Shown here: one piece after another, positions 20,466-25,811 of the stretch
Position numbering within the stretch: the stretch's first letter is position 1
How the letters are laid out: each line of letters begins with the position of its first letter
Notes under the pieces: model-generated
The model's database searches: none
The model's input: only the letters and a program-made list of their open reading frames with translations
What the model was told of the DNA's origin: nothing
Position numbers and translations under genes: made by a program
NCBI RefSeq assembly: GCF_016786325.1
Contig: NZ_JADWYU010000141.1
Coordinates: 15,599-79,598 of the forward strand
Direction of reading: 5' to 3'
Source: Frankia nepalensis
GTDB lineage: Bacteria > Actinomycetota > Actinomycetes > Frankiales > Frankiaceae
Length of the DNA stretch: 64,000 bases

Positions 20466-20990
20466 GGCTTCAGCCGACCAGCGGGTCGAGAGACCCCGGC
20501 GCGCCGAAGAAACCCTGCGCGGCGAAGAAACCCCGCGCCGAAGAAACCCCGCGTCCGCATGCGGCCCCCGTCGTCTGGCCGAAACATGTCGCAAGAACCA
20601 GACTACTCCTGACGGAAGAGCGTTCAGTACGTGTTCGGGGACCACCACGTCGGGCGAAAACATTCGATCTTGACCACAAATCGTTCATTCCCGAGACCTC
20701 ACGGCGGGCCGGCGGCACCTTTGAGGACGGGCAGCCAGGCGACCGGAACGCCTGATCGTAAGAAACCGCGGTCATGTCCGCTGGCCCTGGCCGACGGAAC
20801 AGACCGACGAGGAGCCGCTGTCTGCCCGCGCCGGCGCCTGCCGCCCGGCGCCGTCCATACAGAAAGCAGGGCATGTTCAGCAACCGGATGAGGCCTCCGC
20901 TCGAGGTCACCATCGGCGGGCACCCGTCCACCCGCGGATCCGCGGCGACCCGCGACCCGAGGCCTGCCTGGTCATCTGGCCGGCGATGGT
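20466..20990. other. 525-base gap between kinase and marR genes
   Basis: No gene recognised. It holds the leader of the kinase gene and a short direct-repeat array (20503-20552). Open frames on the minus strand here owe their length to high GC and translate to Arg/Gly-rich text. An A/T-rich patch at about 20600-20690 is the best candidate for the kinase promoter. Confidence 0.5.
20503..20552. repeat. Three tandem 16-17 bp units upstream of kinase gene
   Basis: Near-identical units GCCGAAGAAACCCCGC at 20503, 20521 and 20537, with a one-base change in the first (CTGC end) and GGCG for GCCG in the second. They lie 38-87 bases upstream of the kinase ATG, so they may fall in its untranslated leader. 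Confidence 0.8.
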
Positions 20991-21563
20991 TCAGTCGTCG
21001 GACCGGTCGCGGCTGCTCCCGCCGCGGTCGGCGTCGCCGTCCCGGTCACCGTCGCGGTCGCGGTCGTCGAGGGCGTCGAGCATCGCGGTGAGCACGCGTA
21101 GGGTCGCGTCGACGTCGGCGCCGGTGATGGTCCCGGCGACCTGGCGCAGCAGGTCGTGCTCGCGCGCGGCCACGGCGCCGATCGCCTGGCCACCGGTGGG
21201 CGTGAGCCGGACGTGGTGGGAACGGCGGTGGGCGGGATTGTCGACGGTCTCGACCCAGCCAGCGGCCCGGGCGTCGTTGACCATCCGCTGCACGAACTGG
21301 CGGCTGAGGTCCTGGTCGCGGGCCAGCTGGGGAACGGTCAGCGTGCCGCGCCGGCGCAACTGGTCCAGCACGGCGCGGACGCCGACGGACATGCCCATCG
21401 CTGGTTGGCTGCGTTCGACCACGCGCAGGACCTTGCGGTACAGCGGGCCGACGACGAGGTAGACCTCGGCCAGTCGGTTCGCCAGGTCGTCGGGCGCGAG
21501 CTGCGCCTCTGGGCTGGGCGCGTCGGGGCCGGGCGAGAGGCGGTTGGGCCGGGAGGAGCTCAC
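20991..21563 (-). CDS. MarR family transcriptional regulator
   Basis: A 190-residue regulator. The winged HTH is at about residues 70-130: LRRRGTLTVPQLARDQDLSRQFVQRMVNDARAAGWVETVDNPAHRRSHHVRLT in overlapping order, including the wing DNPAHRRSHHVRLT. The C-terminus is a run of Asp/Arg/Gly (DRDGDRDGDADRGG). It is divergent from the hydrolase at 21624, with two 17-base operators between, an arrangement typical of MarR autoregulation. Proteins of this type often respond to phenolic or lipophilic ligands. The start is GTG 21563; an overlapping frame from 21570 is a shadow. Confidence 0.9.
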   Translation of the reverse strand: MSSSRPNRLSPGPDAPSPEAQLAPDDLANRLAEVYLVVGPLYRKVLRVVERSQPAMGMSVGVRAVLDQLRRRGTLTVPQLARDQDLSRQFVQRMVNDARAAGWVETVDNPAHRRSHHVRLTPTGGQAIGAVAAREHDLLRQVAGTITGADVDATLRVLTAMLDALDDRDRDGDRDGDADRGGSSRDRSDD

Positions 21564-21575
21564 AGGTCAAGGTTA

Positions 21576-21592
21576 TGACACCTGGGTTGTCA
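21576..21592. promoter_or_regulatory. MarR operator 1
   Basis: TGACACCTGGGTTGTCA, a 17-base near-palindrome (one mismatch in the seven-base arms), 13 bases before the marR start. Confidence 0.8.
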
Positions 21593-21607
21593 ATCCTCGT
21601 TACGGCA

Positions 21608-21624
21608 TGACACCTTGGGTGTCA
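21608..21624. promoter_or_regulatory. MarR operator 2
   Basis: TGACACCTTGGGTGTCA, a perfect 7-3-7 palindrome whose last base is the A of the hydrolase ATG. It starts 32 bases after the first copy, three helical turns, so bound dimers would sit on the same face of DNA. Repressor here would block both promoter and start codon of the hydrolase gene. Confidence 0.85.
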
Positions 21625-22475
21625 TGACCGCGATGCTGGCTCCTCTGCGCACCCTCGACCTCGGCGACCAGCGCATCGCCTATCTGGACCGCGACCTGGG
21701 CGCCGGCGGCATCCCGCTGGTCCTCCTGCACGGCGGCGGGGTCGATCACCGGATGTGGTCCGCCCAGCTCGACGCGTTCCCCGAGCGCCGCGTCCTGGTG
21801 CCGGATGCCCGTGGGCACGGCTGGTCCTCGACGCCGTCGATGCCCTACCGTCTCTGCGACGACGTCGTCGCCCTCCTCGACGCGCTGGAGATCGACCGGG
21901 CAGTCCTGGTGGGCGTGTCGATGGGTGGGGGCACCGCCGTGGACACCGCCCTCGAACACCCCGACCGGGTGGCCGGCCTCGTGGTGAGTGGTACCGGCAC
22001 CAGCGAGCCGGACTTCCAGGAGCCCTGGGTGCTCGACATCCAGGAGACCTGGCGGCGTACGGAGGAAGCCGGCGACCTCGAGGGCTGGATCGAGGCGTTC
22101 ATGCGGTTCGTGCCCGGACCTCGTCGCGGCGCCAACGCCGTCGAGCCCGACGTGACCCGCCTCGTCGACACGATGGTGCGGGGCACGCTGGCCACCCACC
22201 TCCTGCGCGGGCCCGGAGGAGCGCCGGTGCCCCCGCACCCGCCGACCCCGGTCACCGACACGTGGGCGCGCGTGCCGCGGATCGGCGTGCCGGTGCTCGC
22301 GGCGGTCGGGGCGCTGGACGGCGACGACCACCTGCGGATGGGCCGGCGGCTCGCCGACTCCGTCCCGCACGGGAGCCTCGTGACCATCGACGGCACCGCC
22401 CACTACCCGAATATGGAACGCCCGGACGCCTTCAACGCCGCCATCGCCGGCTTTCTCGCGACTCACCACCTCTGA
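21624..22475 (+). CDS. Alpha/beta hydrolase
   Basis: A 283-residue alpha/beta hydrolase. The order is clear: VLLHGGGVDHRMW (oxyanion HGG), DARGHGWSS, then the nucleophile elbow GVSMGGGTAVDTALEHPDRV with Ser in GxSMGG, a cap region, VPVLAAVGALDGDDH with the acid, and HYPNMERPDAFN with the catalytic His. ATG 21624 is used; the upstream TTG at 21615 falls inside the operator. Regulated by the divergent MarR protein. Substrate unknown; lactonase, esterase or C-C hydrolase roles are possible. Confidence 0.88.
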   Translation: MTAMLAPLRTLDLGDQRIAYLDRDLGAGGIPLVLLHGGGVDHRMWSAQLDAFPERRVLVPDARGHGWSSTPSMPYRLCDDVVALLDALEIDRAVLVGVSMGGGTAVDTALEHPDRVAGLVVSGTGTSEPDFQEPWVLDIQETWRRTEEAGDLEGWIEAFMRFVPGPRRGANAVEPDVTRLVDTMVRGTLATHLLRGPGGAPVPPHPPTPVTDTWARVPRIGVPVLAAVGALDGDDHLRMGRRLADSVPHGSLVTIDGTAHYPNMERPDAFNAAIAGFLATHHL

Positions 22476-22546: not shown

Positions 22547-22797
22547 ATGGACCTGTTCGACCTGGCCAGCCGCACCCTTGGCGGCGCCGACCTCCGCGGG
22601 GTCGGCCTCGACGCCGCGGACCCGACCGGTGCCCGGCTGGACCGGGCGGACCTGACCGGTACCGTGCTGGCCAGGGCGAACCCGACCGACGCGCTCGAGC
22701 GGGCGCGGGGCAGGTGGATGTGGCGTTCGGGGACGAGGGGACGCGGCTGCCGGCGGGGCCTTCGCGGCCGGCGTCGTGGCTGCCGGCCACGAGTTGA
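22547..22797 (+). pseudogene. Pentapeptide-repeat protein fragment with frameshift
   Basis: From ATG 22547 the frame gives GGADLRGVGLDAADPTGARL and ADLTGTVLARANPTD, a run of A(D/N)LxG-like pentapeptides. Near 22700 the sense is lost in this frame but continues in the next one as AGQVDVAFGDEGTRLPAG, the usual end of actinobacterial pentapeptide proteins (F.D..T.LPAG), to a TGA at 22795. A one-base shift between about 22690 and 22710 explains this. The fragment has few repeats and its N-terminal half is missing, so it is best read as a decayed copy. Confidence 0.65.
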
Positions 22798-22993: not shown

Positions 22994-23269
22994 TCATTTA
23001 CTGCTGCGTTACACAGCGACACGCGGCCCGAAACCAGGCGGCCCGACAGTCATCGCCAGGCAGCTAGCGCCCGCGGTATCCAGGCCCAAACCCCGACCGA
23101 ATCGCACGTATGAGGTCTCCCGAGTCCGGGTATCCGGCCGGCTTGCCCCTGTCCCGGTCCTCGTCCCCGTACAGCGATCCGAGCAATGAGCCGACGGCCG
23201 TACTGGCCGGTTCGGTACTTCCAGGTCGCCGCATACCGTCCCCGTCTCCGCCGACGACAGGACTCTGGC

Positions 23270-23971
23270 ATGACAAGCGCACCACTCACCCTCCTGGCAC
23301 GTCCATACGACTTCACCTTCGACCCGGCCACGACCGCGCTCGTCGTCATCGACATGCAGCGCGACTTCATGGAGCCGGGCGGTTTCGGTGAAAGCCTCGG
23401 TAACGACGTGTCCCAACTGCGGAGCACCATCGAGCCGCTGGCGGCGGTTCTCGCCGCGGTCCGCGCCGCCGGCCTGACCGTCATCCACACCCGAGAAGGC
23501 CACCTGCCGGACCTCTCGGACCTGCCCCCGGCCAAGCTGAACCGGGGGGACGCGGCCCTGAAGATCGGCGACGTGGGCCCGAAGGGGCGAATTCTCATTC
23601 GCGGCGAATACGGCCAGGACATCATCGACGAACTCGCGCCGGTCGAGGGCGAGATCGTCATCGACAAGCCGGGGAAGGGTGCTTTCTACGCCACCTCGTT
23701 CGGCGACGTCCTGGCGGAGAAGGGCATAAAGAGCCTCGTCGTCACCGGGGTCACGACCGAGGTGTGCGTGCACACGACGGTCCGGGAGGCCAACGACCGC
23801 GGTTACGAGTGCCTGGTCCTTTCCGACTGCGTCGGCAGCTACTTCCCGGAGTTCCAGCGGGTCGCGCTCGAAATGATCGCCGCCCAGGGCGGCATCTTCG
23901 GCTGGGTCGCGCCGTCGGCCGCGTTCATCGACGCGCTCGCGCCCCTCTCGGCGGCGTCGGCCGCCCAGTAA
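23270..23971 (+). CDS. Isochorismatase-like cysteine hydrolase
   Basis: A 233-residue enzyme of the isochorismatase-like cysteine hydrolases that includes RutB, biuret hydrolase and nicotinamidase. The triad is visible: Asp in [10 protein letters not shown], Lys in [12 protein letters not shown], and Cys in [17 protein letters not shown] with the preceding cis-peptide [26 protein letters not shown] fits the ureidoacrylate/biuret amidase branch rather than isochorismatase proper. The start at 23270 is preferred to an upstream frame. It lies 181 bases before an NCS2-type permease on the same strand, so together they probably import and hydrolyse a nitrogen-rich ring or urea derivative. No regulator gene is adjacent. 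Confidence 0.85.
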
Positions 23972-24152
23972 CCGGCGCCCAGGCGCCCAGTAGCGGGCGC
24001 CGAAGCGCCGAGTGACCGCCGGCCGGTGACCGCCGGCGGTGATTCAGGAATCCGGCCGCCGCGCGCCGGGCCGGCCACGACCGGCCCGCGGCCGCGGCGA
24101 GCGCCCGGGCAGCCGCGTCGCGGCTGTGCCCACCGTCATCGAGGAGTCTGTC

Positions 24153-25811
24153 ATGGTGAAGTTCCCAGGGACGGGCGGCACAGCCACCGCCGGTCCGCCG
24201 CTGTGGGTCCGGGGCGACCTCAACGCGTTCTTCGGGCTCGGCATCAACGTGCTGGTCAACGTCCTGGTGCTGACCGGGCTGTGTATCGGCGTCGTCGCCA
24301 TTCCCAAGGGAGACGTGCTCGGCACGATTCTGCCCGCTCTCGGGATCGCACTGATCCTGGGAAACCTGTACTACACCTACCTGGCCCGCCGGCTCGCGGT
24401 GAAAGAGGGCCGGTCGGACGTCACGGCGATGCCCTACGGCCCCAGCGTGCCGCACATGTTCATCGTCACGTTCGTCATCATGCTGCCGATCTACCTCAAG
24501 ACGAAGGACCCGTTCAAGGCGTGGGAAGCCGGCATGGCATGGGCCTTCATCATCGGCGTGATCGTCATGCTCGGCGCGTTCGTCGGGCCCACGATCCGCC
24601 GCTACGCCCCCCGGGCGGCCATGCTGGGCACGCTGGCGGGCATCTCGATCGCCTTCATCTCGATGCGGCCGGCAGGGCAGATGTGGGAGGCGGCCTGGAT
24701 CTCGCTGCCGGTCTTCGCCCTGCTCCTCGTCGGACTGCTCACCGACATCAAGCTCCCCTGGAATCTGCCGATCGGGGCGGTCGCGCTGCTGGTGGGCACC
24801 GCGATCGGCTGGATCGGCGGTTTCATGGACGCCCCGGACGTGAGCTCGGCGGCCAAGGACATCGCGCTGGCGGTACCCGACTTCCGGTTCGACATGCTCT
24901 TCTCGGGGCTGGCGGACCTCTCGCCGCTGCTGGCGACGGCCATCCCGCTCGGCGTCTACAACTTCACCGAGGCCATGACCAACGTGGAGAGCGCCGCGTC
25001 GGCCGGTGACAACTACAACCTGCGCGCGGTCCTGCTCGCCGACGGCTTCGGCGCCGTGGTCGGTTCCTGCCTGGGCTCGCCGTTCCCGCCCGCCGTCTAC
25101 ATCGGCCACCCGGGCTGGAAGGGCGCCGGCGGCCGCACCGGCTATTCGCTGGCCACCGGAGTGATGATCGCGGTCCTGTGCTTCTTTGGCCTGTTCAGTC
25201 TCCTCGGCGCGGTACTCCCGCTGCCGGCGATCGTGCCGATCCTGCTCTACATCGGCCTGCTGATCGGCGCCCAGGCCTTCCAGGTCTCGCCCAGGGCGCA
25301 CGCGGCCGCGGTGGTCGCGGCCCTGTTGCCCAACATCGCCTCGTGGGCGGTCGGGCTGATGGACAACGCGCTGGCGGCCGCCGGCACCACGGCGACCCAG
25401 GTGGGCTACGACAAGATCAATCAGGCTGGGGTCGTCTACGAAGGTCTGATGATCTTTGGTCAGGGGGCGATCCTGGCCGGCCTGGTGCTCGGCTCGATCG
25501 TCGCCTTCATCATCGACAAACGGTTCGTCCCCGCGGCGATCTTCTCGGTGGTCGGCGCGGTGCTGTCGTTCATCGGCCTGATCCATGGCGAGAAGGTCGA
25601 GTGGGACGCCAACGGCCAGGTGGCCCTGGGCTACCTGATCCTGGCCGCGGTCTGCGTCGCCTTCGCCCTGACCAAGCCGGCGCCGCGGGTGCCGGACGCG
25701 GACGAGATCGAGCTGGAGCGCGTCCACGGGGTGCCCCAGCAGCCGAAGAAGCAGGACAAGGACAGCAGCGAGCCCGGCTCCGCGCCGGAGGTGCCGGCCC
25801 CCGCGAGCTGA
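24153..25811 (+). CDS. NCS2-like (purine/pyrimidine-type) permease
   Basis: A 552-residue polytopic membrane protein with about 12-14 hydrophobic helices, for example FFGLGINVLVNVLVLTGL, AFIIGVIVMLGAFVGPTI, PVFALLLVGLLTD, YSLATGVMIAVLCFFGLF and IVAFIIDKRF. The core segments MPYGPSVPHMF near helix 3 and YNFTEAMTNVESAASAGDNY with VGSCLGSPFPP resemble the substrate-binding helices of the NCS2/AzgA superfamily (uracil, xanthine, guanine carriers). ATG 24153 has GAGGAG six bases upstream. The charged C-terminus is cytoplasmic. Coupled with the amidohydrolase upstream; solute not determined. Confidence 0.82.
   Translation: MVKFPGTGGTATAGPPLWVRGDLNAFFGLGINVLVNVLVLTGLCIGVVAIPKGDVLGTILPALGIALILGNLYYTYLARRLAVKEGRSDVTAMPYGPSVPHMFIVTFVIMLPIYLKTKDPFKAWEAGMAWAFIIGVIVMLGAFVGPTIRRYAPRAAMLGTLAGISIAFISMRPAGQMWEAAWISLPVFALLLVGLLTDIKLPWNLPIGAVALLVGTAIGWIGGFMDAPDVSSAAKDIALAVPDFRFDMLFSGLADLSPLLATAIPLGVYNFTEAMTNVESAASAGDNYNLRAVLLADGFGAVVGSCLGSPFPPAVYIGHPGWKGAGGRTGYSLATGVMIAVLCFFGLFSLLGAVLPLPAIVPILLYIGLLIGAQAFQVSPRAHAAAVVAALLPNIASWAVGLMDNALAAAGTTATQVGYDKINQAGVVYEGLMIFGQGAILAGLVLGSIVAFIIDKRFVPAAIFSVVGAVLSFIGLIHGEKVEWDANGQVALGYLILAAVCVAFALTKPAPRVPDADEIELERVHGVPQQPKKQDKDSSEPGSAPEVPAPAS

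Follow-up and report, generated by a model that had tools for sequence, protein, structure and literature searches.

The marR–hydrolase locus and its predicted operator pair

The window, that is, the whole stretch of 64,000 nucleotides of Frankia nepalensis DNA analysed here, carries a divergent pair formed by a regulator gene and a hydrolase gene. The regulator gene, marR, is found on the minus strand (20991..21563), begins with GTG and encodes a winged-helix protein of 190 amino acids, which was assigned on the basis of its translation, its orthologs and its match to PF12802 (MarR_2) at 39.4 bits (cutoff 27). Proteins of this family bind palindromes of 16–20 bp as dimers and are released by a ligand, and predicted operator palindromes are present and conserved at the marR loci. 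Solved MarR proteins (3bj6, 3vb2 and 4jba) share the winged-helix core, with E-values between 2.2e-15 and 0.008. The operators and targets of E. coli MarR and of other solved MarR proteins differ from those of the window. The N-terminal sensing cysteine of peroxide sensors of the OhrR/EstR type is missing, and since the window MarR has no cysteine anywhere, an EstR-type thiol switch is excluded for this copy. In the alignment column of its T154, near the C-terminus, a cysteine was found in 83 of 95 relatives and a threonine in the window protein and 11 others, mostly its nearest relatives; this C-terminal cysteine may mark a redox-sensing branch.

The hydrolase gene (21624..22475, plus strand) encodes an alpha/beta-fold protein of 283 amino acids that matches PF00561 with 93.7 bits (cutoff of 25.8) and PF12697 with 84.2 bits. 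Its Ser-Asp-His triad is conserved among 92 aligned proteins, S99 being kept in 88, D232 in 82 and H260 in 91, in agreement with an alpha/beta-fold hydrolase. Against the PcaD 3-oxoadipate enol-lactonase profile (TIGR02427) the protein reached 118.1 bits versus an equivalog cutoff of 255.85, and it remained below the cutoff of every NCBIfam profile among the matches listed; among solved structures it resembles esterases and enol-lactonases. The phenols and lactones suggested as ligands in the preliminary description have the below-cutoff likeness of the hydrolase to enol-lactonases as their sole support. Further features were noted around the pair. A 16-bp tandem repeat (20500-20553; 3.2 copies of CGCGCCGAAGAAACCC) overlaps the upstream part of a long minus-strand open reading frame, and a 30-bp repeat of 2.4 copies is located at 22616-22688, whose translation resembles a fragment of a pentapeptide-repeat protein. 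Additionally, the region 23186-25811 comprises a gene for an isochorismatase-fold protein, nearest to the biuret amidohydrolase BiuH (283.6 bits, below the cutoff of 370), followed by a permease-like frame of 590 amino acids with no Pfam match at 1e-3.

Between the two genes lie two palindromes of the type TGACACC-N3-GGTGTCA, neither assigned to a strand: operator 1, TGACACCTGGGTTGTCA (21576..21592), with one mismatch, and operator 2, TGACACCTTGGGTGTCA (21608..21624), with none. They have the same orientation, their starts are 32 bp apart, and the final base of operator 2 is the A of the hydrolase ATG (21624-21626). All of these features, namely the twin sites, one exact and one with a single mismatch, their distance and the overlap with the start codon at 21624, had been reported in a preliminary description of the locus and were confirmed. 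The exact palindrome occurs once in the 10.7 Mb genome, as operator 2, and one-mismatch versions occur three times, one being operator 1 and the other two lying on other contigs (L002 and L004). According to rough independent-base estimates, about 1.5e-4 exact sites would be expected in the window from its base composition, and about 2e-9 combinations of an exact and a near site within 60 bp. With up to three mismatches allowed, the window holds six matches versus 2.7 expected, so that only the two strong sites are meaningful. The family consensus is TGACACCTTGGTTGTCA, read the same way round in both copies. Therefore, although the match counts of the preliminary description were correct, the roles of the two copies are reversed against this consensus: operator 1 fits it and is the typical copy, whereas the "perfect" operator 2 deviates from it at position 12, with a G found in 6 of 95 rows, the window's included.

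Conservation of the layout and scope of the regulon

In a scan of named genomes, five marR orthologs with 66–80% identity were found, in two Phytoactinopolyspora, Aeromicrobium phragmitis, Brevibacterium jeotgali and a MAG of the Actinomycetes. In a wider survey at E <= 1e-20, matches came from 20 of the 393 genomes searched in the class, from 67 of 297 in one family, and from 4 of 22, 23 of 200 and 5 of 100 in the remaining draws; the five draws overlap, and every match from them was taken. In the window's own family, 32 of 35 genomes gave a match at E <= 0.001, which, the window's own aside, were nearly all only 24–42% identical, and the relative from one genome (G007) alone was carried on. 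After three duplicates (L040, L041 and L045) were dropped, 107 loci were examined, among which L006 and L142 are the same place and L037 and L105 have an identical control region. A pair was scored when two TGACA-N7-TGTCA sites, each with at most two mismatches in the ten core positions, were found just upstream of marR. The conservation of these positions is partly built in, because the search limited mismatches there; as positions 1-5 and 13-17 were fixed, only positions 6-12 provide free evidence. Moreover, raw counts overstate independence because the sequences are related.

The pair was present in 96 of the 107 loci, at spacings of 31 bp (84 loci), 32 bp (9) and 30, 33 and 34 bp (one each), which indicates that the twin-site arrangement around marR relatives, as read from their sequences, is not due to chance. 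Twin sites, divergent hydrolase and shared ATG are kept in relatives with 49–80% MarR identity. As the sites were first paired, the hydrolase-proximal one ends on the ATG in 92 of 96 loci. The four exceptions are L078, L079 and L082, in which a third operator ends on the ATG, and L100, which has ATA and only a remnant of the hydrolase; thus, 95 of the 96 loci have their last operator ending on the hydrolase ATG. The 11 loci without a pair comprise remote relatives (L006/L142 and L107, 42–44% identical; L137, L139, L140 and L141, 43–47%), partial marR genes (L058, L059 and L134) and L116, with one site and no hydrolase.

Some of these loci present other arrangements. In the remote sister group formed by L137, L139, L140 and L141, TGACA-N7-TGTCA-like sites are found 20 bp apart, and the hydrolase lies downstream of marR on the same strand instead of divergently. 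In L006, which belongs to the family of the window genome, the perfect palindrome TGACAACAATGTTGTCA occurs just upstream of a remote marR (42%) that has no accompanying hydrolase. In five loci marR and the operators remain though the hydrolase is truncated, interrupted or without a match: it is decayed or truncated in L047, L049, L100 and L108, and no hydrolase match was obtained in L125, whose operators are intact. This suggests that the hydrolase has been lost repeatedly among marR loci.

The exact operator-plus-ATG pattern was matched 10 times in the 393 genomes of the class, in all 10 cases beside this marR, and a reversed control pattern did not occur in the same genomes. A wider regulon was looked for and not found: in these 393 genomes the pattern lies beside this marR only, and the regulator thus appears to serve just its own pair of genes. 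In the genome of the window itself, the family-consensus pattern, counted by sequence only, recovers the two known sites and further matches.

Predicted promoter elements divided between the operator copies

The two operators appear to contain the hydrolase promoter. Positions 12-17 of the penultimate site read TTGnCA or TTGnCG in 95 of 96 loci, and in the window they form a predicted -35 element, TTGTCA, within operator 1 (21587..21592, plus strand). In all 96 loci the last site reads CAnnnT at positions 4-9, directly after TGn, which corresponds in the window to a predicted extended -10 element, TGA-CACCTT, within operator 2 (21608..21616, plus strand). The spacer between the two elements, taken over the last two sites, is 17 bp in 85 loci, 18 bp in 10 and 16 bp in one, and is 18 bp in the window (21593-21610). 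The predicted -10 is weak and would depend on its TGn extension, because the hexamer begins with C and not with the T of TAnnnT. At the place of the TAnnnT-like box of leaderless genes, all 96 loci have CAnnnT, with C instead of T. Seven nucleotides separate this box from the ATG (21624..21626, plus strand), so that the A is the eighth base past the hexamer, where transcription would normally start; since this A is the predicted +1, the hydrolase mRNA is predicted to be leaderless.

Position 9 did not belong to the half-site core used for site finding. All 96 last sites have T there, whereas the penultimate sites have T in 27, G in 30, C in 24 and A in 15. On a tree of 95 marR proteins, parsimony placed 46 changes at this position in site 1 and two in site 2 as first paired, and both of the latter correspond to middle sites of triple-operator loci. 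T12 alone is weak evidence because last sites, which need no -35, also have it (89 of 95 site 2 rows). An alternative -10, TATGAC, which straddles the left boundary of site 2, was discarded: the spacer would then be 12 bp, T9 would have no explanation, and the base two positions ahead of the site varies (position -1: A28, C12, G34, T21).

On the opposite strand, the marR -10 is predicted at the outer edge of operator 1 (21570..21577, minus strand), as CATAAC (21577-21572) or the overlapping TAACCT (21575-21570), the latter 6 nt before the marR GTG. Of the 96 loci, 86 have A2 and T6 in the marR-strand hexamer beside the outer half-site, which is mostly CATnAT with TGT preceding; the window is an exception, departing from the family CATnnT. 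The marR start codon is found 9–15 nt beyond site 1 in 79 of 96 loci, most commonly at 10, and the marR mRNA is probably leaderless too, a weaker proposal than that for the hydrolase.

The loci with a third operator (L078, L079 and L082) arose by three separate origins according to parsimony on the marR tree. In all three, T9, T12 and the ATG arrangement belong to the last two sites, and this promoter-bearing pair is 32, 31 and 31 bp apart. The marR-side copy thus freed has G12 in three of three, a base found in only one of 96 penultimate sites. Although these cases are few, they distinguish promoter geometry from helical phasing more clearly than the spacing can by itself.

From these observations we hold it probable that marR and the divergent hydrolase form a self-contained two-gene module controlled from two operators that would simultaneously serve as the hydrolase promoter. 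Operator 1 would supply the -35 and operator 2 the extended -10, transcription would start at the A of the ATG to give an mRNA without leader, and the marR -10 would lie directly against operator 1 on its outer side. Bound at either site, a MarR dimer would then cover contacts of RNA polymerase and switch both genes off, until a small molecule releases it; repression is likely because MarR sites overlapping promoters are a known principle. The generalized version, which we favour somewhat less firmly, is a modular design in which neighbouring copies of one MarR operator provide different parts of a sigma-70-type promoter: the penultimate copy contributes the -35, and the last contributes the extended -10 as well as the start point and the initial A of the ATG of a leaderless gene, while the outer half-site of the first copy provides the -10 of a leaderless repressor gene. 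In the three cases seen, further operators would have been gained next to the repressor gene, the promoter duties staying with the last pair.

The preliminary description had proposed cooperative double repression of the hydrolase together with autoregulation of marR. Control of both genes from a local operator by an autoregulating MarR is the reading that best accounts for the data, and it is well supported indirectly by the conserved layout and by the 10 of 10 pattern matches found beside marR. None of these comparisons shows cooperativity, however, and the promoter accounts for the spacing equally well or better, since promoter geometry alone gives 31–32 bp. That the two operators stand three turns apart on one face of the helix for cooperative MarR dimers, with the promoter elsewhere or incidental, is possible but rather doubtful. 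It would account for the spacing of 30–32 bp in 94 of 96 loci, for the common orientation of the copies and for the distance of 20 bp, about two turns, in the remote sister group; it gives no account of a position 9 fixed only in the gene-proximal copy, nor of that copy always ending on the ATG, and it does not sit well with the promoter-free pairs of the triple loci, in which the extra marR-side copy lies 31, 34 and 33 bp from the next site. Cooperative binding and an embedded promoter are compatible and not mutually exclusive.

Two other explanations concern the start codon itself. The last palindrome might act as an RNA hairpin in a leadered transcript, hiding the hydrolase AUG and regulating translation, and the window's TGACACCTTGGGTGTCATG has a predicted folding energy of -9 kcal/mol, the 47-nt region folding better than 200 of 200 shuffles. 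The family consensus, in contrast, reaches only -3.1 kcal/mol, no better than shuffles, and the mismatch of C6 and T12 persists in most last sites, whereas a hairpin would restore the pairing; moreover, the identical type of palindrome lies upstream as site 1, and no equally conserved promoter-like element was found for a transcript starting before site 2. Given the weak consensus fold and the kept mismatch, this possibility was rejected as very improbable. It is extremely unlikely, too, that the true hydrolase start is the TTG inside site 2 (21615), with the ATG overlap being incidental: this codon is in the same frame as the ATG, but positions 8-10 of the last sites are TTG in only 74 of 96 (CTG, TTA or CTA in 21 and ATG in one), whereas 95 of 96 loci retain the ATG. 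Such variability beside a conserved ATG led to the rejection of the TTG start.

If the promoter is indeed embedded in the operators, one short DNA word would serve as repressor site, promoter element and gene start, giving high-GC actinobacteria a highly compact repressor switch that could be used as a part for synthetic control. A common inference would be corrected as well, in that sites three turns apart need not imply cooperative binding where RNA polymerase sets the spacing, and the natural two- and three-site variants allow direct testing.

Comparison with known systems

No published account of this gene pair or motif was found in the open-licence literature, although its absence is not proven; the TGACACC printed in PMC3317779 was rejected as a motif report, as the sequence given there belongs to cloning primers. 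The overlap of MarR sites with promoters is already known, and what is new here is that the start codon is fused to an operator and that the promoter elements appear to be shared out between operator copies.

Studies in actinobacteria offer precedents for the predicted elements. In the promoter description for Corynebacterium glutamicum, the -35 consensus is quoted as TTGnCA (PMC5401885). In Streptomyces coelicolor, 21% of primary starts were reported as leaderless, with a -10 motif TAnnnT (PMC4895711), and leaderless genes were described as being marked by TA-like boxes some 12 bp ahead of the start codon (PMC3160421). Together, these reports (PMC4895711, PMC3160421) describe about 20% of actinobacterial genes as leaderless, with a TAnnnT box roughly 12 bp in front of the start codon and no Shine-Dalgarno leader, whereas the window box is CAnnnT, has its first base 13 bp from the A of the ATG, and is made of an operator half-site.

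Among regulators, CrtR of C. glutamicum resembles the window MarR in being an actinobacterial PF12802 protein, divergently encoded and autoregulated with a small regulon, and also in the reported leaderless crtR transcript and a binding site over promoter elements (PMC5401885). As described in that report, it differs in its TTAA motif, in needing one site, in the 114-nt leader of its target and in its ligands, which are isoprenoid pyrophosphates (PMC5401885). The closest studied case for a two-operator layout over both promoters is EstR/estC of Agrobacterium tumefaciens, in which, according to the authors' account of the control region, the repressor binds the two operators separately (PMC5201249). 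However, EstR senses organic hydroperoxide via Cys16, while the window MarR has no cysteine, and mapping placed the EstR/estC starts 14 and 34 nt before the ATGs, which gives leadered transcripts (PMC5201249), in contrast to the hydrolase of the window, which is predicted to be leaderless.
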